Positions 456-9,591 of a stretch of DNA of 36,737 bases are shown here, one piece after another (position 1 is the stretch's first letter; the number at the start of each line of letters is the position of its first letter). The translations under genes and the position numbers were made by a program. Source of the stretch: Acidimicrobiales bacterium (lineage in GTDB: Bacteria; Actinomycetota; Acidimicrobiia; Acidimicrobiales; SZUA-35); NCBI GenBank assembly GCA_013003535.1, contig JABDIY010000169.1:1-36737 (forward strand). The letters are read 5' to 3'. The notes beneath the pieces were generated by a model. It did no database searches. It was not told the origin of the DNA and saw only the letters and a list, made by a program, of their open reading frames with translations.

Positions 456-764
456 CTAGATTTCGCACGCTCCCGCGGAGCAGTCTTTGCCTGCCGCCGC
501 CGCCCGCAGGTGCCGGAAGCCGATCCCCACCCCGATGGCATAGACCACGCCAAACACGATGCCTACGCCCAGCGTGTTCCGACTGATGAGTGATCCGAAC
601 GCAGTGCCACCAAAGATCAGCGCTAGGACCGCCATGGAAAGCGGCAGATGACAGGGGCAGAAAACGAAGGACCAAATGAGCCAGCGACGCCCCCGACGCT
701 CGCGTTCCCGGGAACGGTCGTCGGCCGTGGCGGGTTGGGTTTTGATCAGCTCAGCTGTAGCCAT
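456..764 (-). CDS. Small two-helix membrane protein with CPCH motif (MerE-like)
   Basis: This 102-residue protein has a basic, charged N-terminus (about 1-27), a first membrane segment containing C36-P-C38-H39-L-P, a second hydrophobic segment (about 64-83), and a C-terminal tail with C95 and C100. The CPCHLP motif at the start of a helix resembles the small mercury transporter MerE, where the paired cysteines carry Hg(II). No merR, merA or merT is visible here. Instead the gene sits 63 bp downstream of a CstB-like persulfide dioxygenase on the same strand, preceded by a GGAGAC-type ribosome site. The sequence shows the paired thiols. That it moves a soft metal or a sulfur species through them is inference, and the MerE match is by motif and size only. 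Confidence 0.7.
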   Translation of the reverse strand: MATAELIKTQPATADDRSRERERRGRRWLIWSFVFCPCHLPLSMAVLALIFGGTAFGSLISRNTLGVGIVFGVVYAIGVGIGFRHLRAAAAGKDCSAGACEI

Positions 765-827
765 AATTCGTCTCCAACGTTGGGAGTGATATCGACAGTT
801 CCGGACCGAAGGTTGAATGCTTTGCGC

Positions 828-2207
828 TCAGGCGGTTGCGAACAGTTCGGTCCACGCTCCATAACCGCCCATGATGTCGGTCACGTCCTGGAACCCGGCC
901 TGGCGGAGCACGCTGGCCGCTACCGAGGATCGGTACCCGCCGGCACAGAACACTACGGTGGGGGCGGTTGGGTCCAGCTCATCGAGACGGCCGCCAAGCT
1001 GGCCAACCGGCATCAGGGTCGCTCCCGGGATCGTCCCAATTGCGATCTCGCCAGGATTCCGGATATCGACCAACTGGAGACCATCGATGTCACTCTTCCG
1101 ATCTTCGAACTCTCGGGCTGTCATCCGAGAAGCTCGCTGCACCTTGTCCGGGTGTGCCGCCATGACCGTCAGAGGATGTTCGAGGTAGCCCACCACCCGA
1201 TCGAACCCGATCCGGGCCAATCGATTCCGTGCCTCTAGTTCGAAGCCGTCTTCGACTACGAGAACGATGTCTACATCGTGGGGGACAACGGATCCGGCGA
1301 ACTCGGCGTATCGGCCGTTGAGGCCAACGTTGATCGAACCAACGAGATGGGCCAGGGCAAAGTCTTCCGGGGTGCGGCCGTCGACAATCATGGCGCCTCC
1401 GGCGACAGCGGCTTCCAGTGCCGCCAGATCGAGAGCTACCGGCGGAGCTGACTCTTGCAGCAGATCACGATCCTTTCGGTTGAGAATTGCGTCGTACACA
1501 AAGTAGCTGGGGGCCGGAGGTTGGCCTTCGGTAACGAGCTCGACAAACGTCTTCTTGTCCGGAGCGAGCAACGCGTAGTTGGTGGCCTTCTGTTCACCCA
1601 TTGTGGAAGAGGTCTCGGTAGAGAGGTTCTTGCCGCACGCCGATCCTGCGCCATGGGCGGGAAAGACCCGAGTTGCGTCGGGCAATGGCAGCAACTTGGT
1701 GTGCAGGCTCTCGTATAGCTGGTCGGCAAGCTCATCTCGGGTAAAACCGATGGACGCCAGCAAATCCGGGCGGCCAACATCACCTATGAACAGGGTGTCA
1801 CCGGTGAGAACGCCATAGGGATCGCTGTCGTCAGCGTGCTCCCAAACCACGATGCTGATCGACTCCGGGGTATGACCGGGGGTGTGGAGAATCTGCAGCT
1901 TCACGTCACCGAGGCTGATGATCTCGCCATCGGTCAGCTTCCGAGACGCGAATTCCGTCTCAGCCACCGAAGAGAATCCGATCTCCGCGCCGGTAGCTGC
2001 GGCCATCTCAAGGTGGCCGGAAAGGAAATCCGCGTGGAAATGCGTCTCGATGACAAGCTCGATTTCCAGACCGGCTGCGGCTGCATCTCTGATGTATTCG
2101 TCTACATCGCGACGGGGGTCCACAACCACCGCGCGACCAGAGCTCTCATCGCCGATCAAATAGGACGCCTGGGAGAGGCAGTCGAGGTAATACTGGGTGA
2201 ACTTCAT
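828..2207 (-). CDS. CstB-like persulfide dioxygenase / rhodanese fusion
   Basis: This is a 459-residue cytoplasmic fusion. Residues 1-240 are a metallo-beta-lactamase fold of the ETHE1/CstB type: H56-x-H58-x-D60 followed by H65, H112 in TPGHT, D137 in GDTLF, and H185. H56, H112 and D137 match the usual Fe(II) ligands. Residues 260-345 form a rhodanese-like domain with no catalytic Cys (VLVVEDG where the loop should be). Residues 365-459 form a second rhodanese domain with active-site C421 in CAGGYRSS. Staphylococcal CstB has the same order and the same inactive first rhodanese domain; it oxidises low-molecular-weight persulfides to thiosulfate/sulfite. ATG 2207 has an AAAGG site 7 bases upstream. 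A CstR-type operator precedes it (2244-2261), so induction by reactive sulfur is likely. Confidence 0.9.
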   Translation of the reverse strand: MKFTQYYLDCLSQASYLIGDESSGRAVVVDPRRDVDEYIRDAAAAGLEIELVIETHFHADFLSGHLEMAAATGAEIGFSSVAETEFASRKLTDGEIISLGDVKLQILHTPGHTPESISIVVWEHADDSDPYGVLTGDTLFIGDVGRPDLLASIGFTRDELADQLYESLHTKLLPLPDATRVFPAHGAGSACGKNLSTETSSTMGEQKATNYALLAPDKKTFVELVTEGQPPAPSYFVYDAILNRKDRDLLQESAPPVALDLAALEAAVAGGAMIVDGRTPEDFALAHLVGSINVGLNGRYAEFAGSVVPHDVDIVLVVEDGFELEARNRLARIGFDRVVGYLEHPLTVMAAHPDKVQRASRMTAREFEDRKSDIDGLQLVDIRNPGEIAIGTIPGATLMPVGQLGGRLDELDPTAPTVVFCAGGYRSSVAASVLRQAGFQDVTDIMGGYGAWTELFATA

Positions 2208-2230
2208 GGGAGACCTTTCATCGAATTCTT

Positions 2231-2244
2231 ATTGTACGTACAAT
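2231..2244. promoter_or_regulatory. Perfect 14-bp palindrome with TGTACGTACA core, over the cstB-like -10
   Basis: ATTGTACGTACAAT is a perfect palindrome. Read on the minus strand its distal arm gives TACAAT, a good -10 hexamer about 24 bases before ATG 2207. The same TGTACGTACA core recurs at 5233-5242 over the sulP -10. It may be only a symmetrical -10 region or the site of a second regulator. Confidence 0.5.
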
Positions 2245-2261
2245 ATACCCCGTGGGGTATA
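2244..2261. promoter_or_regulatory. CsoR/CstR-type operator before the cstB-like gene
   Basis: TATACCCC-GT-GGGGTATA has perfect 8-bp arms and is the A/T-flanked C-tract/G-tract inverted repeat expected for CsoR/CstR-family repressors. It occupies the -35 position of the minus-strand promoter whose -10 is TACAAT (2231-2236), where binding would block polymerase. An 18-bp site of the same form lies at 5261-5278 beside the CsoR-family gene. Confidence 0.75.
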
Positions 2262-2265
2262 AATG

Positions 2266-2859
2266 TCAAACCCTGACGGCCGAAGTATTCAGCCCATCCA
2301 GAACTCCCTGGATGTCGCAGCGATCGGTTCGGTTGTACGGCAGTTTGGCCAGTAGCGAACCCATGGCACAGGAGTTCGACACCGCAGAGAACACCAGACC
2401 TCCACCCACCGCGCCGGCAAGAGCTACCGCCACTGGGCTAACGAGGCTGGCCAGAACCCCACCGAGCACGAGAGAACCGGCGGCGAGTCGGACCTGACGG
2501 TCCATGGCCCAACGCTGGGTATCGCCGTGAACGACATCGCCATCGTCGGCCAGCCACGCATTCATTCCGCCCTCAAGCAGGTGAAGCGAATGTTTGCCGG
2601 CATCGGTCAGTTTCTGATGGGCTTGAGTTGCCCGAGCGCCAGACTGGCAGACCAGGACGGCCGGATGGTTCGTGTCGGCCAGGTCTCGCACATGTTCGCC
2701 AAGTGTGTCCAGGGGAACATTGTAGGAGCCGGCGATGTGGGCGGTCTCGAACTCGCCACCAGTTCGAACGTCGAGAATCCGAATATCAGGATCCGTGGCC
2801 AGCAGATGGCGGAACTGCGCTGTATTGATTGTGTCGGTTTGCGGGATGGATGTTGCCAT
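2266..2859 (-). CDS. Membrane-tethered rhodanese (rhodanese + DUF2892, YgaP-like)
   Basis: This 197-residue protein has an N-terminal single rhodanese domain (about 8-112) with active-site C71 in the loop CQSGARA. A C-terminal DUF2892-like hairpin of two hydrophobic segments (about 125-163) follows and ends in the conserved-looking SCAMGSLLAKLPYNR. This is the architecture of E. coli YgaP, a membrane sulfurtransferase that carries sulfane sulfur on its Cys. The ATG at 2859 is preceded by AAGGAG. It lies 68 bp downstream of the carbonic anhydrase gene on the same strand and 58 bp upstream of the cstB-like gene, with the operator in that gap. A role in passing persulfide sulfur to the dioxygenase/rhodanese downstream fits the context but is inferred. 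Confidence 0.88.
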   Translation of the reverse strand: MATSIPQTDTINTAQFRHLLATDPDIRILDVRTGGEFETAHIAGSYNVPLDTLGEHVRDLADTNHPAVLVCQSGARATQAHQKLTDAGKHSLHLLEGGMNAWLADDGDVVHGDTQRWAMDRQVRLAAGSLVLGGVLASLVSPVAVALAGAVGGGLVFSAVSNSCAMGSLLAKLPYNRTDRCDIQGVLDGLNTSAVRV

Positions 2860-2927
2860 TGGATTTCTCCTTGATATGTGCCCCGTGAAGAGGCGATTGT
2901 TGTTTGCGAATGATCGGGAAGTTTGAG

Positions 2928-3476
2928 TCAGCTCGGGGCGGCAGTCACTGCACTCTGTACCGGTCTCACCAGGTCCGTGGAGAGGTCATATACCGCTCCA
3001 TGCACTTCTACTGCGCCGGACCGAATGCCCTCGCCGGTTGGCGACAGCGAGTTGGTGAGTGTGGTAACGGCACTGAGAACGTTCAGCTCGATCAGCTGAT
3101 CGAGAGTGGCTGCATGTGTCTGATTGTCGAGTTCACAGATCTGCTGGGTGATCGGGCTCAGATAGCCGTGGCACTTGCCGGATCGGGCTGCCGTGACGGC
3201 GCCACAGCCGGTATGGCCCAGCACGATGAGCAGCGGCACCGCCAACTCCTCGACGGCGTAGTCGAGGCTGGCGATCGCGGCGGGTGTGGCCGTGTTGCCG
3301 GCAACCCGGACCACGAAGATACTTCCTGCCGGCTGGTCGAAGAGGAGCGAGGGCGGCACCCGGGCATCGGAACACGCCAGGATCGCCGCAACGGGTTTGT
3401 GCTCGGGGGCGGCGACCCGTTGTGGCTCACGAACAGCCCGGTGGGATGCCAGCAACGAAGCCCAGCGCTCAGACAT
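2928..3476 (-). CDS. Beta-class carbonic anhydrase
   Basis: This is a cytoplasmic zinc enzyme interconverting CO2 and bicarbonate. With the ATG at 3476 it is 182 residues and shows the beta-class signature: C35 with the D37/R39 dyad in ACSDARVPPS, then H88 and C91 in GHTGCGAV. C35, H88 and C91 are the expected Zn ligands. I prefer 3476 over the upstream in-frame ATG at 3494 because GGGAGGG lies directly before it and the start overlaps the SulP stop in ATGTCTGA, a typical coupled arrangement. The tight link to a SulP transporter suggests the pair handles bicarbonate. Its place in a persulfide regulon is unusual. Confidence 0.9.
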   Translation of the reverse strand: MSERWASLLASHRAVREPQRVAAPEHKPVAAILACSDARVPPSLLFDQPAGSIFVVRVAGNTATPAAIASLDYAVEELAVPLLIVLGHTGCGAVTAARSGKCHGYLSPITQQICELDNQTHAATLDQLIELNVLSAVTTLTNSLSPTGEGIRSGAVEVHGAVYDLSTDLVRPVQSAVTAAPS

Positions 3477-5223
3477 GGAGGCCCTCCCGCTCAACCGCAG
3501 TAGTAGCGCGTTCGTCGATGGCGTGACGCCGTTGATCTACCGCCTCGGAGAAGCCGGTGCGCACAGATTCGACCGCTTCACTGACGGAAGGGTGGATACG
3601 CGGGCCAAGATCATCCCAGATGCCGGCCCGATGCATGACGTCGCGCACCGGACCTTTCACATCGCTGAGGTGCAGCGCAACGTGGCGTTCATCGATCTCC
3701 ACCATCACTTCTCGCAACATCTCGGCGCCCGTGGCATCGAGGTCGTTGATTCCTGAGGCATCCAGAATCAAGGCCCGGGGTTCCGTAGTGATGGCATCGG
3801 CGTGTTCGATGAGGAGCTTCTTGATCTTCATCGCATTGACGAAGGACAAGGCGGCGTCCACGCGCACGATGGATATCCCTGGTTGCGTTTCAGCTTCGGG
3901 AAAGCGCTTGATGTTGCGGTAGCTGTCGGTTCCCGGAACGTGGCCCAACGACGCAGTGTGGGGCATGGACATGCGAGCGAAGACCACGAGCATCGATGCC
4001 ACAACGGCCACGGCGATCCCCAGTTCGATTCCCAAGATCAACGTGGCGAAGAATGCGACGCTCAAGCCGATCAGGTCGGAGCGTTTGACGGCCGCGATAT
4101 GGCGCATCTCGGCGACGTCTACAAGCCCGATTACCGCCATGATGATGATCGCCCCGAGAGCGGCGTTTGGCAACGAACTGAGCAGGGGTGTCAGGAATGC
4201 GATAGTGGCCAGCACGATTCCGGCAGTGATGAGCGATGCCAGTGGCGTGCGGGCACCAGCGGTGTCGTTCACGGCCGTCCGTGAGAACCCTCCGGTGACC
4301 GGATAGCCGCCGAACAAGCCGGCGGTGACGTTGGCGGCGCCCAGGCCTATCAACTCAGAGTTCGGCTCGACTTCGTAGCGGTGGCGGCGAGCGTAGACCT
4401 TGGCGACGGCAATAGATTCCATGAACCCGACCAGGGTGATGACCATGGCGGTGCCGGCGAGGTTGCCAACGATCGAAGCGTCAACGCTGGGAATCGACAA
4501 GAAGGGAAGTGAGTCCGGAATGCTGCCAACCACCTTGACCCCTCGTTCCTCGAGACCGAAGACCTCTACAGCGGCGATCGATCCCACCACAACCACCAGT
4601 GCCGCCGGGATGCGAGGAGCCAGTTTCTTGAGGGTGAACAACCCGCCCAACGCCCCGAGACCGAGCACCATGGTGGTCTGGTTCGCTTCTCCGATCGACC
4701 GGAAGAACTCGATCACCGTTTCGTAGAAGTGTTCCTTGCCCGCTGGCGAGATGCCGAAGATGTGTTTGGCCTGCGAAAACCCGATGATGATGGCCGCCGC
4801 CGCAGTGAATCCAACCAAAACCGAATGAGACAGGAAATTGACCAGGAACCCCAGGCGCCCGAACCCGAGAACGAGGTGCACAATTCCAACCATCAGGGCC
4901 AGCACCGCGGCGGCTGTCAGGTAATCAGCGGTGCCCTCCTCGACCAACGGCGCCAGCGCTGATGCGGTGAGGAGCGAGACGATCGCCACCGGGCCAACCG
5001 CAAGCTGTCGGGAAGTTCCGAACAACGCGTAGACGACCACCGGGACGGTGGCGGCATAGAGGCCAACCGCCGGGGGAAGCCCGGCGAGTAGGGCATACGC
5101 CATCGCCTGGGGGACGAGCATCGCACCAACGGTGAGTCCCGCCGCCAGGTCACTGCGGAGGTCCTTCCGCTCATACCGGGGGGCCCAGGACAGGATGGGA
5201 ATAACGTTCCGGAGCGAGTGCAT
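3469..5223 (-). CDS. SulP family anion transporter with STAS domain
   Basis: This 584-residue inner-membrane transporter has a multi-helix SulP/SLC26 core over about residues 1-420. It includes the N-terminal motif region DLAAGLTVGAMLVPQAMAYA and the VTGGFSRTAVN segment. A cytoplasmic STAS domain follows at about 440-550 (ILDASGINDLDATGAEML). Substrates of the family are sulfate, bicarbonate and other anions. The overlapping carbonic anhydrase gene favours bicarbonate, while the CsoR/CstR-type operator and the rhodanese genes favour a sulfur oxyanion; the sequence alone does not decide. The ATG at 5223 coincides with the predicted transcription start (-10 at 5230-5235), suggesting a leaderless message. 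It is divergent from the CsoR-family repressor gene. Confidence 0.9.
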   Translation of the reverse strand: MHSLRNVIPILSWAPRYERKDLRSDLAAGLTVGAMLVPQAMAYALLAGLPPAVGLYAATVPVVVYALFGTSRQLAVGPVAIVSLLTASALAPLVEEGTADYLTAAAVLALMVGIVHLVLGFGRLGFLVNFLSHSVLVGFTAAAAIIIGFSQAKHIFGISPAGKEHFYETVIEFFRSIGEANQTTMVLGLGALGGLFTLKKLAPRIPAALVVVVGSIAAVEVFGLEERGVKVVGSIPDSLPFLSIPSVDASIVGNLAGTAMVITLVGFMESIAVAKVYARRHRYEVEPNSELIGLGAANVTAGLFGGYPVTGGFSRTAVNDTAGARTPLASLITAGIVLATIAFLTPLLSSLPNAALGAIIIMAVIGLVDVAEMRHIAAVKRSDLIGLSVAFFATLILGIELGIAVAVVASMLVVFARMSMPHTASLGHVPGTDSYRNIKRFPEAETQPGISIVRVDAALSFVNAMKIKKLLIEHADAITTEPRALILDASGINDLDATGAEMLREVMVEIDERHVALHLSDVKGPVRDVMHRAGIWDDLGPRIHPSVSEAVESVRTGFSEAVDQRRHAIDERATTAVEREGLHV

Positions 5224-5228
5224 TCCGT

Positions 5229-5244
5229 TAATGTACGTACATTA
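5229..5244. promoter_or_regulatory. Perfect 16-bp palindrome with TGTACGTACA core, over the sulP -10
   Basis: TAATGTACGTACATTA is a perfect palindrome between the divergent sulP and cstR-like genes. Its left half supplies the minus-strand -10 (TACATT). The TGTACGTACA core is identical to that at 2233-2242 before the cstB-like gene. Confidence 0.5.
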
Positions 5245-5258
5245 TTGCAACTTGGCAA
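5230..5258 (-). promoter_or_regulatory. sulP operon promoter, leaderless
   Basis: On the minus strand TTGCCA (5258-5253), a 17-bp spacer and TACATT (5235-5230) form a good sigma70-type promoter. Seven bases beyond the -10 is the A of the SulP ATG at 5223, so the transcript probably starts at the initiation codon. Confidence 0.6.
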
Positions 5259-5280
5259 CCTATACCCCCATAGGTATATT
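5252..5280 (+). promoter_or_regulatory. cstR-like gene promoter, leaderless
   Basis: TTGGCA (5252-5257), a 17-bp spacer (5258-5274) and TATATT (5275-5280) precede ATG 5287 by six bases, placing +1 on the start codon. The operator 5261-5278 fills the spacer and enters the -10, consistent with autorepression. Confidence 0.6.
5261..5278. promoter_or_regulatory. CsoR/CstR-type operator in the cstR-sulP intergenic region
   Basis: TATACCCC-CA-TAGGTATA is an imperfect version of the 18-bp inverted repeat at 2244-2261, with the same length, an identical left arm, and two changes in the right arm. It lies in the spacer of the repressor's own promoter and just upstream of the -35 of the divergent sulP promoter, so one dimer pair could control both directions. 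Confidence 0.7.
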
Positions 5281-5286
5281 GATTTT

Positions 5287-5532
5287 ATGCAGTTCCCTGA
5301 GGAAACATCGGTCGATGTGATCAAACGACTCCGCCGTCTGGAGGGCCAAATACGGGGCCTGCAACGTATGGTCGAAGAAGGCTCGGAGTGCCGCGAAATC
5401 GTGACCCAGCTAGCAGCCGCCAAAGGCGCACTCGATCGCGTGGGCTTCAAACTGATGTCGTCTGCGATGAGCCAACAGACCGAAGACACGAATATGGACG
5501 AGCTGGAAAAGCTTTTCCTGAAGCTCAGCTAG
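5287..5532 (+). CDS. CsoR/CstR-family (DUF156) repressor with a single cysteine
   Basis: This 81-residue all-helical regulator has the family pattern [22 protein letters not shown], then C35 and a helix-2 region [14 protein letters not shown]. CsoR copper sensors use Cys-His-Cys, and CstR persulfide sensors use two cysteines 29 residues apart. Here C35 is present, but the position 29 residues later is Gln64 and the CsoR His position (25 later) is Ala60. It therefore cannot be a classical Cu sensor and lacks the partner for a CstR di- or trisulfide. Gene content (CstB-like, rhodanese) and the operators argue for a sulfur-responsive role. The start at ATG 5287 is chosen because an upstream extension would run through the operator. 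Its stop overlaps the GMC gene stop in CTAG. Confidence 0.88.
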
Positions 5533-7175
5533 CCACCCTCGGGGAGGAAAACCTCAGCGGTGTCTGGCGGCAGCATCTCATTGCCCAAGATCATGTCGGC
5601 GGCCTTTTCCGCGACCATCATGGTGGGGGCATAGAGGTTGCCGTTGGTCACAATCGGGAGCACCGAAGCGTCAACCACTCGCAGACCCTCCGTTCCGTGC
5701 ACCCTCATCGTTGCAGGATCAACTACGGCCATTTCATCCGTGCCCATCTTGGCGGTGCAGCTGGGATGAAGCGCAGTCTCGGAGTCGCGCGCCACCCAGT
5801 CCATGATCTCCTGATCTGTCTCTACCGAAGGCCCGGGCGAGATTTCTCCGCCGTTGTACTTGTCGAAGGCAGGCTGACTGAGAATACGTCGAGCGATCCG
5901 AACAGCTTCTATCCATTCCCGCCGGTCCCGCTCGGTTGACAGATAGTTGAACTGGATCGCCGGCTTCTTCCGAGGATTCGTAGACGTGATTTTCACAGTG
6001 CCTTTGGAGTCTGAATACATGGGGCCAACGTGCACTTGGTAGCCGTGACCCTCGGTGGGTGACGTACCGTCATAGCGAATAGCGATTGGCAGGAAGTGAA
6101 ACATGAGGTTGGGGTAGGCCTCTTGGGGATTGGACTTCAGGAACGCCCCGGCCTCGAAGTGGTTGGTGGCAGCTGGTCCCCTACGAAAAAGCCACTGAAG
6201 ACCGATGAACGGTGCCCGCCACTTGGCGAGGTAGGGCTGCATAGACACCGGTTCTTTGCAGGAATACTGAATGTAGACCTCGAGGTGGTCTTGCATGTTT
6301 TCGCCGACGCCACGAAGCGCGCTTACCAGCGGGATACCCAGGCTCTTGAGATGATCGGGATCTCCGATCCCAGACAGTTGCAGCAACTGCGGGCTGTTGA
6401 ATGCGCCGCCGCACAAGATGACCTCGGCCCCGGCAACCTCGACAGTGCGGCGATTACGCCGATACTCCACACCGACGCAGCGGTTGCCCTCGAAGAGCAA
6501 TCTGTTGGCATGGGCTCGAGTGATCAAGGTGAGGTTGGGACGGTCGAGAACAGGATGCAGGTAGGCCCGGGCAGCGCTCAGCCGACGGCCGCGATGAAGG
6601 TTCTTGTCGAAGGCGGCAAAACCCTCTTGGCGGAAGCCGTTCACGTCGTCGGTGCGGCGAAACCCTGCCTGAGGACCGGCCTCGAGCCACGCCTCGAAGA
6701 GGGGGCTGGTGGCCGGACCTCGCTCGAGAATGAGCGGTCCGTCTCCGCCGCGCCACTCGTCTTCCCCCGCCAGGCAGTTCTCCATACGTTTGAAGTAGGG
6801 CAGGCAGTGGGCGTAGTCCCACTGTTCCATTCCGGGTTGCTCTGCCCATTTCTGGTAGTCGCCGGGATTGCCGCGTTGGAAGATCATGCCGTTGATGCTG
6901 GAGCTGCCGCCCAGCACCTTTCCCCGGGCGTGGTACACGCGCCGGCCGTTCATGTGGGGTTCGGGCTCGCTTTCATATTTCCAGTCATAGAAACGACTAC
7001 CGATCGGGTACGCCAACGCCGCGGGCATGTGGATGAAGACGTCCCACTTCCAATCCGTACGGCCCGCCTCCAAAACAAGAACCCGGTTGGCGGGATCGGC
7101 GCTGAGACGATTGGCGAGCGCGCAGCCCGCTGACCCGCCGCCGACGATGATGTAGTCGTACTCAGGTTCAGCCAT
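5529..7175 (-). CDS. GMC family FAD oxidoreductase (choline-dehydrogenase-like)
   Basis: This 548-residue cytoplasmic flavoenzyme begins with a Rossmann FAD site ([19 protein letters not shown]). It has the GMC signatures around [13 protein letters not shown] and [16 protein letters not shown], and a C-terminal catalytic region with His in [11 protein letters not shown] and Asn in TNGNLYAPT, as in choline dehydrogenase BetA and related alcohol oxidases. Length matches BetA. I take the ATG at 7175 (MAEPEYDYI) because the upstream 21 codons from 7238 carry no family sequence. Choline is the best-known substrate, but GMC enzymes of this type act on several alcohols. No betaine-aldehyde dehydrogenase or choline transporter is adjacent, so the substrate stays open. 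It converges on the CsoR-family gene and diverges from the pyrimidine operon. Confidence 0.88.
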
Positions 7176-7331
7176 CCGGAAGTCTACAAGCGATGGGCTC
7201 GGTGAAAAGCCGACCCGACAGCTGAGCGCACCAATCATCGATTAGCGAAAAATCACCATTGTGGTAGGTTCGTTTTACAAATCGCCCGCAGGGTTGAACC
7301 AGTGAAAAACGAGTGAACGGAAGAGGTTGAC

Positions 7332-8165
7332 GTGGTCAAGGCAGCAATCGTTCAAACAGGATGGACCGGCAGTAAAGAGTCCATGATCGATGTACACGAG
7401 AAGTACATGCGTGAGGCCGCAGCCGTCGGCGTAAAGGTGATGTGTTTCCAGGAGCTGTTCTACGGCCCGTACTTTTGCCAGGTCCAGGAGGCGGAGTACT
7501 ACTCCTACGCCGAAGCGATCCCCGACGGCCCCACCACCAAACGATTTCAAGACCTCGCCAAGGAACTGGGCATGGTCTTGGTGCTACCGATGTACGAAGA
7601 GGAACAACCCGGATTCCTTTACAACACCGCAGCGGTGATCGACGCCGACGGGAGTTATCTGGGTAAGTACCGTAAGACCCATATCCCCCAGGTCAAGGGA
7701 TTCTGGGAGAAGTTCTATTTCCGACCCGGCAACCTTGGTTACCCGGTGTTCCAGACCGCGGTTGGCAGGGTCGGCGTGTACATCTGTTATGACCGCCACT
7801 TCCCCGAGGGCTGGCGAGCGCTCGGCTTGGCCGGAGCCCAGATCGTCTTCAATCCGTCCGCCACGAGCCGGGGGTTATCGGCGTACCTGTGGCAGTTGGA
7901 GCAGACCGCAGCTGCGGCCGCCAACATGTACTACGTGGGCGCAATCAACCGGGTCGGAATTGAACCCCTTGGCGACAACGACTTCTACGGCACCTCCTAT
8001 TTCGCCAATCCTCGCGGCCAGTTCGTCGATGGCACGGCCAGCGATCAAGAAGAGGAACTGGTGATCCGCGACCTCGACTTCGACCTGATCGATCAAACCA
8101 GGGCCCAGTGGGCCTTCTACCGGGACCGTCGGCCAGACATGTACGGCCCCCTCACCCAAGCCTGA
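7332..8165 (+). CDS. Nitrilase-superfamily N-carbamoyl amidohydrolase (beta-ureidopropionase-like)
   Basis: This 277-residue carbon-nitrogen hydrolase has the complete Glu-Lys-Cys triad: E41 in FQELF, K115 in KYRKTHIP and C152 in YICYDRHFPE. The family cleaves N-carbamoyl-beta-amino acids (releasing CO2 and ammonia) or N-carbamoylputrescine. Because dihydropyrimidinase starts 13 bp downstream, beta-ureidopropionase activity, the last step of reductive pyrimidine breakdown, is the better reading. The GTG at 7332 has GGAAGAGG just upstream, and the first strand (VKAAIVQTG) begins at once as expected for the fold. N-carbamoyl-D-amino acid hydrolase in a hydantoin pathway is the main alternative. 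Confidence 0.88.
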   Translation: MVKAAIVQTGWTGSKESMIDVHEKYMREAAAVGVKVMCFQELFYGPYFCQVQEAEYYSYAEAIPDGPTTKRFQDLAKELGMVLVLPMYEEEQPGFLYNTAAVIDADGSYLGKYRKTHIPQVKGFWEKFYFRPGNLGYPVFQTAVGRVGVYICYDRHFPEGWRALGLAGAQIVFNPSATSRGLSAYLWQLEQTAAAAANMYYVGAINRVGIEPLGDNDFYGTSYFANPRGQFVDGTASDQEEELVIRDLDFDLIDQTRAQWAFYRDRRPDMYGPLTQA

Positions 8166-8178
8166 AGGAGACTCCGCC

Positions 8179-9591
8179 ATGACCACGTTCATCAAGGGTG
8201 GAACAGTAATCACCTCAACCGGCGCCGACCTCAACGAGGTGCTCATCGACGGCGAGACCATCATCGCCGTCCTCAGTCCGGGCTGCGACGTGGCCCAAAG
8301 CGCAGAGGCTGGTGCGGAACGAGTGATCGACGCCACCGGCCGCTACGTGATCCCGGGCGGCGTCGACGTGCACACCCACATGGCACTGCCCTTCGGCGGA
8401 ACCGTGGCCTCGGACGACTTCGAGAGCGGTACACGGGCCGCCGCCTGGGGCGGCACCACCACCATCGTCGACTTCGCCACGCAAGCCTTCGGCCAAGACG
8501 TGAGGGAGTGCTACGACGCCCGGCTGGCAGAAGCCCAGGGCCAGTGCGCCATCGACTATGGCTTCCACATGATCATCGGCGACGTGAACGATGCCTCCCT
8601 GAAGGAAATGGACCTCCTCGTCAACGAGGGGGTTACCAGCTTCAAGCTGTTCATGGCCTACCCCGGGGTCTTCCTTTCCGACGACGGGCAAATCCTCCGG
8701 GCGATGCAACAGGTGGCCAGCAACGGGGGTTTGCTCATGATGCATGCCGAGAATGGGCTGGCCATCGACGTGCTGGCCCAACAGGCCTATGAACGAGGCG
8801 AAACCAGCCCGGTCAACCACGGCTACGTGCGTCGTGCGGAGTTCGAGAGCGAGGCCACCCATCGCGCCATCCAACTTGCCAAAGTGGGAGCCGCTCCGCT
8901 CTACATCGTCCACCTTTCGGCTTCCGAGGCCTTGGAACAGGTGGCGATCGCCCGGAACAAGGGAGCCAACGTCTTCGCAGAGACGTGCCCGCAGTACCTC
9001 TACTTCAACCTCGAAGACCACCTCGGCAAAGAAGGCTTCGAGGGGGCCAAGTATGTCTGCTCCACGCCGATACGTACCAAACACGAACACCATCACCAGG
9101 ACCTTTGGACCGGGCTTCGGACCAACGACCTCAGTGTGGTCTCCACCGACCACTGCCCGTTCTGTATGAAGGAACAGAAGGAACTGGGCATCGATGATTT
9201 CCGCGCCATTCCCAACGGGATCGGCGGAGTCGAACACCGGATGGACATGATCTACCAGGGCGTGACCCAGGGGCAGATCGGCTTGGCCCGCTGGGTGGAG
9301 TTGTGTTCCACCACACCGGCCCGGATGATGGGCCTCTACCCCAAGAAGGGCGTCATTCAACCTGGATCCGATGCCGACATCGTGTTGTACAACCCCAACC
9401 ACGAGTGGACGATCAGCGTAGAGAACCATCACATGAACATCGACCACTCGGCGTATGAAGGCATCACCGTGCCCGGCAAGGTGGAGACCGTTCTCTCCCG
9501 GGGTCGAGTGATCGTCGAGGACGGCGAATACCTCGGCAGCAAAGGCCATGGACAGCTTGTCCGGCGAGGTCTGAGCAGCTACTTGATCTAA
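8179..9591 (+). CDS. hydA: Dihydropyrimidinase / hydantoinase
   Basis: This 470-residue cyclic amidohydrolase (amidohydrolase superfamily TIM barrel) has a complete di-zinc site: H65-x-H67 in DVHTHM, carbamylated K156 in SFKLFMAY, H189 in MMHAENG, H245 in IVHLSA and D324 in STDHCPF. Tyr161 after the carbamylated Lys is the substrate Tyr of dihydropyrimidinases. It opens 5,6-dihydrouracil/thymine or hydantoins to N-carbamoyl amino acids, which the preceding amidohydrolase would then cleave. The ATG at 8179 follows AAGGAGACTCCGCC. The two genes and probably the LLM oxidoreductase after it form one operon. The first-step dihydropyrimidine dehydrogenase is not in the window. Confidence 0.93.
   Translation: MTTFIKGGTVITSTGADLNEVLIDGETIIAVLSPGCDVAQSAEAGAERVIDATGRYVIPGGVDVHTHMALPFGGTVASDDFESGTRAAAWGGTTTIVDFATQAFGQDVRECYDARLAEAQGQCAIDYGFHMIIGDVNDASLKEMDLLVNEGVTSFKLFMAYPGVFLSDDGQILRAMQQVASNGGLLMMHAENGLAIDVLAQQAYERGETSPVNHGYVRRAEFESEATHRAIQLAKVGAAPLYIVHLSASEALEQVAIARNKGANVFAETCPQYLYFNLEDHLGKEGFEGAKYVCSTPIRTKHEHHHQDLWTGLRTNDLSVVSTDHCPFCMKEQKELGIDDFRAIPNGIGGVEHRMDMIYQGVTQGQIGLARWVELCSTTPARMMGLYPKKGVIQPGSDADIVLYNPNHEWTISVENHHMNIDHSAYEGITVPGKVETVLSRGRVIVEDGEYLGSKGHGQLVRRGLSSYLI

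Follow-up and report, generated by a model that had tools for sequence, protein, structure and literature searches.

How could a repressor of the CsoR family sense sulfane sulfur without a second thiol? The question is raised by a block of genes in a 36,737-nucleotide stretch of the genome of an Acidimicrobiales bacterium (contig JABDIY010000169.1, taken at its full length and referred to as the window), in which sulP and the genes for a beta-carbonic anhydrase, a rhodanese fused to a YgaP-type transmembrane domain, a CstB-like persulfide dioxygenase (pdo) and a small MerE-like membrane protein (the CPCH protein) lie on the minus strand, and a CsoR-family repressor with a single cysteine is encoded on the plus strand. 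An earlier note had read this block as a regulon of that one repressor. We think it likely that these genes form the local part of a regulon for sulfide/persulfide oxidation, present in several families of the class, that is controlled by a GntR/HutC regulator and doubled in the window's lineage by a single-cysteine CsoR lock. The CsoR operators of the single-regulator reading are there; it is incomplete because a GntR-type palindrome and a candidate GntR regulator exist as well. This second switch seems to be of a kind not previously linked to sulfur, as far as searches of the open-licence PMC literature go: the GntR passages of the papers listed describe no control of persulfide-oxidation genes by a GntR protein. 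In genome G000 (3,995,572 bp in 221 contigs, 95.8% complete) the window forms contig C185; numbers preceded by G, C and L designate genomes, contigs and fetched loci or stretches, respectively.

Two sites at each promoter

The earlier note pointed to two 18-bp inverted repeats of one form, one perfect and one with two changes, and these are present as described and nowhere else in the window (coordinates in Table 1). At three or fewer mismatches to TATACCCCNNGGGGTATA the window holds these two sites only, compared with an average of 0.05 in shuffled sequence (0 of 100 shuffles reach two). The genome motif search that was proposed, run with the looser TATACCCCNNNNGGTATA at up to two mismatches over all 3,995,572 bp, matched the same two sites and no others; since the reversed control pattern has 2 matches in one direction (forward) and 3 in the other (reverse), that count alone is not striking. 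Both operators stand at the promoter regions of the block, one of them inside the repressor's own promoter, as had been claimed. The pdo operator does not cover the -35 element, as the earlier note had it, and lies instead between -35 and -10, overlapping the -10.

Beside each CsoR operator, at both promoter regions, is a second palindrome, WWTGTMCGKACAWW, that had been overlooked. Its exact form occurs at just two sites in the window genome, both in the block. At up to two mismatches the palindrome is not outstanding in the window (chance mean 1.02, with 28 of 100 shuffles reaching two), so the case for it rests on exact matches and on the comparison of genomes. A one-mismatch copy lies just upstream of the window genome's gntR (C7:4048-4061) and a two-mismatch copy accompanies its second pdo (on C146). 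The other sites with at most one mismatch, on C46, C142, C169 and C209, are probably chance occurrences: that on C46 abuts a cytidine deaminase gene, and the open reading frames (ORFs) at the remaining three have no match to the sulfur gene set.

Across 39 genomes of the window's family, 26 of 44 pdo genes have the palindrome (at up to two mismatches) in their upstream region, as against 69 of 3000 random 303-bp windows, and so do 16/17 sulP and 15/30 gntR genes. (The 44 pdo genes come from 46 places; a partial one on G025:C285 was left out and another, on G005:C126, has too little upstream sequence.) Some of the site-less pdo genes stand behind a site-bearing sulP (G024, G020 and G019). Where pdo has the operator, the layout in aligned promoters is TTGAC, a CsoR operator filling the spacer, and then a -10 of the form TATAAT or TATATT. 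In a set of 19 pdo promoters, hand-picked from those with the palindrome, the centres of operator and palindrome are 15 bp apart in all nine promoters that bear an operator (eight at up to two mismatches, L197 at three); in one of the nine, from G009, the repressor was not detected in an assembly that is 81% complete. Fifteen bp is one and a half turns of the helix, and two proteins would therefore sit on opposite faces of the DNA. Where no close repressor is found, in G037, G034 and G029, pdo keeps a TTGAC/TATAAT-like promoter with the palindrome at the same place, and the spacer holds no operator (5, 7 and 10 mismatches in register). At sulP, within the set of loci around gntR that is described below, the operator (at up to two mismatches) is found in 6/6 loci with the repressor and 0/13 without. 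Within the window's family, then, it is the GntR-type site that the promoters have in common and the CsoR operator that varies; GntR and its site are met more often than the CsoR layer.

The palindrome follows the -10 at pdo and lies on the -10 at sulP, and its interpretation as a sigma-factor element was rejected on that ground. In the region 5215-5290, sulP and the repressor gene have divergent promoters with overlapping -35 hexamers (5253-5258 on the minus strand for sulP, 5252-5257 on the plus strand for the repressor), and the sulP and repressor transcripts are probably leaderless or nearly so. In the sister genus, pdo of G035 has two facing GntR-type sites around its -10 (L028:7880-7925), replacing the combination of a CsoR operator with one GntR site; at pdo of G036 (L027:7700-7760) a clear GntR-type site is accompanied by a degenerate second one. 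Sister-genus palindromes also occur by a peroxiredoxin/Fur-family gene pair, by one thioredoxin gene each in two genomes and by a DsbA-like gene (L244:3450, L247:1485, L249:1418, L248:1600), hinting at a wider thiol-stress regulon.

Linkage of the palindrome to gntR and to sulfur genes

A full-length orthologue of the candidate regulator is found in 29 of the 39 family genomes. In the window genome its gene is on another contig, at about G000:C7:4085-4828; in G036 and G035 a GntR-family gene follows pdo. The pdo-side copy of G035 (L028:6082-6402) comprises an N-terminal domain only (63% over residues 7-87), and the full-length copy of that genome is on another contig.

The best 80 of 305 GntR loci found were analysed by targeted tblastn, dropping upstream stretches below 100 bp and matches under set limits of identity and length (clustering of all their ORFs had been spoiled by shadow ORFs). 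In these loci 66 of 78 palindromes with at most one mismatch fall within -200 to +20 of the start of a gene of the set, a density of 1.44 per kb in upstream stretches as against 0.011 per kb elsewhere, the set including gntR itself, which was the basis for choosing the loci. The palindrome precedes sulP in 17/19 cases, pdo in 18/30 and SQR in 4/10. Genes for Pdo, SulP, SQR, NrfD or the repressor lie within 10 kb in 48 of the 80 loci, and pdo, sulP or SQR in 35.

In a survey of 296 genomes of the class, GntR is present in 32 (from 18 families) and the exact palindrome in 35. The exact site occurs in 22/32 genomes with GntR and 13/264 without (Fisher p 6e-17, in a test that ignores the relatedness of the genomes), and of the 42 sites in GntR-bearing genomes 23 are no more than 20 kb from gntR; as a control, the reversed pattern gives 16 sites, spread over 13 of the 296 genomes. 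Among 20 further stretches, picked for having gntR or the site, 15 carry pdo, sulP or SQR, mostly with a site beside gntR; none of the three was seen in L319, L324, L327, L329 and L330, and no gntR in the DNA fetched for L329 and L316. In family f7 there is a contiguous order: sulP, (carbonic anhydrase), (rhodanese), pdo, (SQR), NrfD/FeS, Mo-oxidoreductase and gntR, with sites before sulP and pdo (L315, L321, L323 and L328, and also L316, whose stretch lacks gntR). Sites before pdo, sulP or SQR near gntR recur in f3 (L313, L314), f44 (L318), f19 (L322) and f64 (L326). The repressor was not seen beside the gntR clusters of these five families; some of the genomes (G081 and G224, for example) have CsoR-family relatives elsewhere.

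In 13 of the 80 loci gntR has, close by and on the other strand, a gene that was labelled LysR-like by eye (L204, L205, L207, L208, L209, L211, L212, L215, L216, L221, L223, L225 and L227). Only two of these hold pdo or the palindrome, and the gntR group with the LysR-like gene may for that reason have another role.

The candidate GntR/HutC regulator and its ligand pocket

The GntR and UTRA domains (PF00392 and PF07702) both score above cut-off in the G036 orthologue, and the window-genome protein matches NagR/YvoA and DasR in sequence over most of its length. A predicted model of the relative in L160 (mean pLDDT, the predicted local distance difference test, 83.3; pTM, the predicted template-modelling score, 0.65) has an effector domain that matches those of HutC, DasR and PhnF at Z scores of 17.9-18.8; full-length superpositions have root-mean-square deviations of at least 13 Å because the domains are placed differently. 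No named NCBIfam subfamily is reached, the best being PhnF at 105.8 bits with a cut-off of 156.8. Among the best 80 of 305 relatives of the protein, the named ones come from metagenome-assembled genomes labelled actinobacterial, mostly Acidimicrobiales or Acidimicrobiia, with the exception of one titled Euryarchaeota.

The recognition helix, SRHTxRxA, matches that of AraR, whose box is given as At(T/A)tGTaCGTAcaa(A/T)T in the available part of PMC4218819. Residues were mapped to NagR by visual inspection of the alignment. The NagR residue that reads the outer guanine, Arg38 (PMC4333415), is replaced in 40/40 GntR sequences, mostly by Leu (28), and the arginine equivalent to NagR Arg48 and AraR Arg41 is kept in 40/40; one G per half-site would fit this pattern. 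In NagR the effector phosphate is held by Arg133 and Arg135, and ligand contacts include T90, E145, A224 and Y228 (PMC4333415). Both arginines are kept in all 40 sequences, and the other contacts are changed: T90 to F (39), E145 to D (40), A224 to R (39) and Y228 to I (37). Sulfate mimics the effector phosphate in NagR, whose DNA-binding domains move upon binding (PMC4333415). No cysteine column of the GntR alignment exceeds 15/40. A small sulfur oxyanion would be the preferred ligand, because the phosphate arginines are kept, sulfate can stand in for phosphate in NagR and no cysteine is conserved.

A CsoR-family repressor with one cysteine

The earlier note placed the repressor (its start now set at 5287) in the CsoR/CstR family. 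The CsoR part of that assignment stands, by a PF02583 (Trns_repr_metal) score of 78.3 bits with a gathering threshold of 22.8. Copper-sensing CsoR proteins bind Cu through a Cys-His-Cys site, and FrmR is marked by Pro2. Here the His and the second Cys of the copper site are absent, residue 2 is Gln and the NCBIfam score for FrmR is 42.9 bits, the cut-off being 133. Sensing of copper, nickel or formaldehyde was rejected, as the ligand residues are absent and the NCBIfam scores are below their cut-offs.

The CstR part fares less well. Cys35 is the only cysteine, the second having been expected at about position 64, and in the alignments of nine sulP-linked repressors, the window's included, all nine lack seven residues spanning that place, retain Cys35 alone and adjoin sulP. 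The repressor of the sister genus (G035, G036) keeps the second-cysteine segment and adjoins rhodanese and pdo, not sulP. A cysteine pair is present in 28 of 29 other loci of the class with a close CsoR-family relative; the exception, L278, has Cys35 alone and is likewise divergent to sulP. Release of ScCsoR from DNA requires both Cys37 and Cys66, in the available text of PMC7533328. The protein thus lacks the dithiol of the CstR/ScCsoR persulfide sensors, and with a single cysteine a classical dithiol CstR is not supported. It does have ATACC-N6-GGTAT operators at sulfur-gene promoters, as those sensors do; the published ScCsoR box is ATACCn6GGTAT (PMC7533328, same portion). The repressor may have a CstR-like role, though it fails on the feature that defines CstR membership.

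A proposed promoter with two inputs

From the sites, their positions and conservation, their linkage and their co-occurrence with the regulator genes, we infer binding, repression, ligands, induction and direction of transport as follows. GntR would repress pdo and sulP, to which relatives add SQR and carbonic anhydrase, through WWTGTMCGKACAWW over the -10/+1 region, and its binding to pdo and sulP fragments would depend on TGTACGTACA. In the window's lineage the CsoR-family repressor would act on the same promoters, in the pdo spacer and between the divergent sulP and repressor promoters, at a site taken as TATACC-N6-GGTATA. Persulfidation of Cys35, its sole thiol, would take it off the DNA; GntR would be released by a small ligand in the UTRA pocket, the likeliest being a sulfur oxyanion, sulfite or thiosulfate, and both signals would be required for full expression. 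Pdo would then convert low-molecular-weight persulfide to sulfite or thiosulfate, the rhodaneses would shuttle sulfane sulfur, SulP would export the oxidised sulfur anion and carbonic anhydrase would supply or buffer bicarbonate for the exchange.

A sharper version of this scheme is possible, and we put it forward tentatively: that sulfide oxidation, in the lineages that have the GntR/HutC protein, is governed chiefly by this protein, which has no conserved cysteine and senses a sulfur oxyanion, sulfite or thiosulfate, in its UTRA pocket, and that the single-cysteine CsoR protein at a fixed 15 bp adds a further lock, specific for persulfide, by which the promoter would read the pathway's substrate and its product together. 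If that is true, a metabolite-sensing regulator would separate the amount of persulfide from the amount of oxidised product, and a two-input promoter would be testable with two short operators.

Alternatives

In a plain persulfide regulon of the CstR/ScCsoR type, the CsoR-family protein alone would control both promoters by thiol chemistry and the palindrome would be incidental. The operators do match the ScCsoR box, and the 29 other CsoR loci of the class (19 with a ScCsoR-type box, 11 with a neighbouring pdo) hold the palindrome in none of their 1.5-kb flanks. We nevertheless judge this explanation unlikely: the palindrome is conserved also at sulP and pdo promoters that lack the CsoR operator, it tracks gntR genome-wide, its position relative to the -10 differs between pdo and sulP, unlike that of a promoter element, and the second cysteine on which ScCsoR depends is missing. 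That the signal of the CsoR-family protein is formaldehyde or a metal (Cu, Ni), with sulfur genes next to it by coincidence, is very improbable. Against its family membership and weak NCBIfam matches to RicR, FrmR and RcnR stand scores that are all far below the cut-offs, the loss of the Cys-His-Cys set down to Cys35 and the constant adjacency to sulP.

Could some other regulator bind the palindrome, with GntR linked to it by a shared neighbourhood only? The recognition helix and the box are both AraR-like, GntR and the site co-occur at the level of genomes, and sites precede gntR itself in 22/80 loci, all of which make such a binder decidedly unlikely. Candidates for it are the LysR-like gene of 13 loci, the Fur-family gene of L026 and the sigma-factor gene of L027; of the 78 palindromes, just 2 fall in those 13 LysR-like loci, in a screen for other regulators that was not exhaustive. 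The explanation draws on two near-complete genomes of the family, G013 and G033 (95-96% complete), which have palindrome sites and in which GntR was not detected.

These two genomes also weigh against regulation by GntR and a CsoR lock, as do several other observations. The window genome's gntR is not adjacent to the block, and that genome has no close SQR (best match 29% identity). Of the ten family genomes without a detected GntR, five still carry the palindrome before pdo or sulP, and G009 has both types of site before pdo, with neither regulator found in its 81%-complete assembly. Ten of the 32 GntR-bearing genomes of the class have no exact site, gntR has a palindrome of its own in no more than the 22 loci just cited, 11 of the 13 LysR-like loci have no palindrome and the Fisher test is open to the relatedness already referred to. 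Finally, close CsoR-family matches, in 103 of 395 class genomes, are commoner than GntR (32/296), and CsoR relatives with two cysteines that go together with pdo are common in the class.

Relation to known persulfide circuits

The cst operon of Staphylococcus aureus comprises CstR and CstB together with CstA, TauE and SQR. The block shares with that system a CstB-like fusion of metallo-beta-lactamase (MBL) and rhodanese domains and a CsoR-family repressor, and differs from it in having no gene for CstA, TauE or SQR and no second cysteine in its repressor. The staphylococcal system is mentioned in PMC8148161 and PMC9918477. The Streptomyces coelicolor circuit, as set out in the same portion of PMC7533328, consists of ScCsoR, ScPDO, a rhodanese and TauE, with the box at several promoters, including the repressor's own. 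A CsoR-family repressor, a persulfide dioxygenase, a rhodanese, an anion exporter (here a predicted one) and an operator at the repressor's own promoter are common to both. In contrast, the repressor of the block has one Cys in place of Cys37 and Cys66, SulP and carbonic anhydrase take the place of TauE, and a GntR-type palindrome is added at both promoters.

Two regulators on one persulfide-oxidation cluster are known from Bacillus licheniformis, where YrkD is joined by NreBC, a sulfide-sensing two-component system (PMC9918477, likewise in part). The block resembles it in that respect, except that its second regulator would be of the GntR/UTRA one-component type. The off-window GntR shares domain architecture and UTRA fold with NagR and DasR, and recognition helix and box with AraR; unlike NagR, it has altered ligand-contact residues around the retained phosphate arginines, and its regulon would be one of sulfur oxidation. 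The bacterial sulfide regulators listed in the available part of one review are CstR, SqrR/BigR, FisR and CsoR, plus SoxRS and OxyR, with none of GntR type among them (PMC8148161).

Genes of the block and their neighbours

The gene calls of the earlier note agree with the present profile searches (Table 1). Its CstB-like fusion is borne out: Pdo unites an MBL domain with two rhodanese domains in a single chain, keeps both cysteines of the aligned motifs and matches the solved structures 3tp9 (E 3.3e-88) and 3r2u (E 1e-60; S. aureus CstB, we presume) over its full length, which identifies it, by sequence, as a CstB-like persulfide dioxygenase-sulfurtransferase. The solved structure nearest to SulP is a plant sulfate transporter (E 1.5e-107), followed by SLC26 exchangers and, far lower, by 6ki1 (E 3.1e-26), which is labelled a low-affinity sulfate transporter and which we take to be BicA.

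Table 1. Positions of genes, promoter elements and regulatory sites of the block in the window
Feature	Position	Strand	Remarks
CPCH small membrane protein, MerE-like	456-764	-	63 bp downstream of pdo
pdo, CstB-like persulfide dioxygenase-sulfurtransferase	828-2207	-	MBL and two rhodanese domains; Pfam Lactamase_B, Rhodanese
GntR-type palindrome ATTGTACGTACAAT	2231-2244		at pdo start region
pdo -10 TATATT	2242-2247	-	read from sequence; aligned promoters
CsoR-type operator 1	2244-2261		within pdo -35/-10 spacer; 0 mismatches to TATACCCCNNGGGGTATA
pdo -35 TTGACA	2264-2269	-	read from sequence; aligned promoters
Rhodanese fused to YgaP-type membrane domain	2266-2859	-	PF00581 and PF11127
Beta-carbonic anhydrase	2928-3476	-	PF00484, 108 bits
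SulP anion transporter with STAS domain	3469-5223	-	TIGR00815, 519.5 bits (cut-off 380.45)
sulP -10 TACATT	5230-5235	-	read from sequence; relatives aligned
GntR-type palindrome AATGTACGTACATT	5230-5243		covers sulP -10
Repressor -35 TTGGCA	5252-5257	+	read from sequence
sulP -35 TTGCCA	5253-5258	-	read from sequence; relatives aligned
CsoR-type operator 2	5261-5278		in repressor promoter, upstream of sulP -35; 2 mismatches to TATACCCCNNGGGGTATA
Repressor -10 TATATT	5275-5280	+	read from sequence
CsoR-family repressor, single-cysteine (Cys35)	5287-5532	+	PF02583, 78.3 bits (cut-off 22.8)

Of the accessory genes that had been assigned to the regulon, sulP is supported by the palindrome or operator at sulP across relatives, and carbonic anhydrase more tentatively. 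The carbonic anhydrase gene accompanies sulP in 6/19 sulP loci and in L316 and L328; in two sister-genus genomes, where sulP is on a different contig, a separate palindrome stands 7 bp ahead of the start of the carbonic anhydrase gene. The gene's own palindrome and its travelling with sulP support its membership, and palindromes before carbonic anhydrase genes are a lead on why the two travel together.

Contrary to its earlier inclusion, the CPCH protein has only weak links to the system. Its PF05052 (MerE) score, 23.8 bits, is just above the cut-off of 22.8, and it falls short of the NCBIfam MerE cut-off (29.4 bits, with 80 required); a PADLOC scan of the protein gave no match. It was rejected as a conserved part of the system because only 2 of 17 homologues, found in 17 of 248 genomes of the order, have pdo or gntR within 1.5 kb: the window's own, beside pdo, and that of G035, near gntR. 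For 10 of the other 15 a neighbouring ORF was identified (MFS, YibE/F, lyase, thiolase, ferric reductase, peptidase, tRNA synthetase, glycosidase, Na/H exchanger and kinase), and there is no mercury gene among these ten.

On the other side of the block (5529-9591) the convergent neighbour is a choline-dehydrogenase-like GMC oxidoreductase gene, followed by carbon-nitrogen hydrolase and amidohydrolase genes, with no link to the sulfur block seen in that region. The second pdo of the window genome, 60% identical to the first, is followed by an NrfD/4Fe-4S gene up to the start of contig C146 (G000:C146:68-3071, L145), and contig C7 begins with a Mo-oxidoreductase gene followed by gntR (G000:C7:200-4828, L082); the two contig ends may adjoin in the genome, in the order pdo2-NrfD-Mo-gntR.

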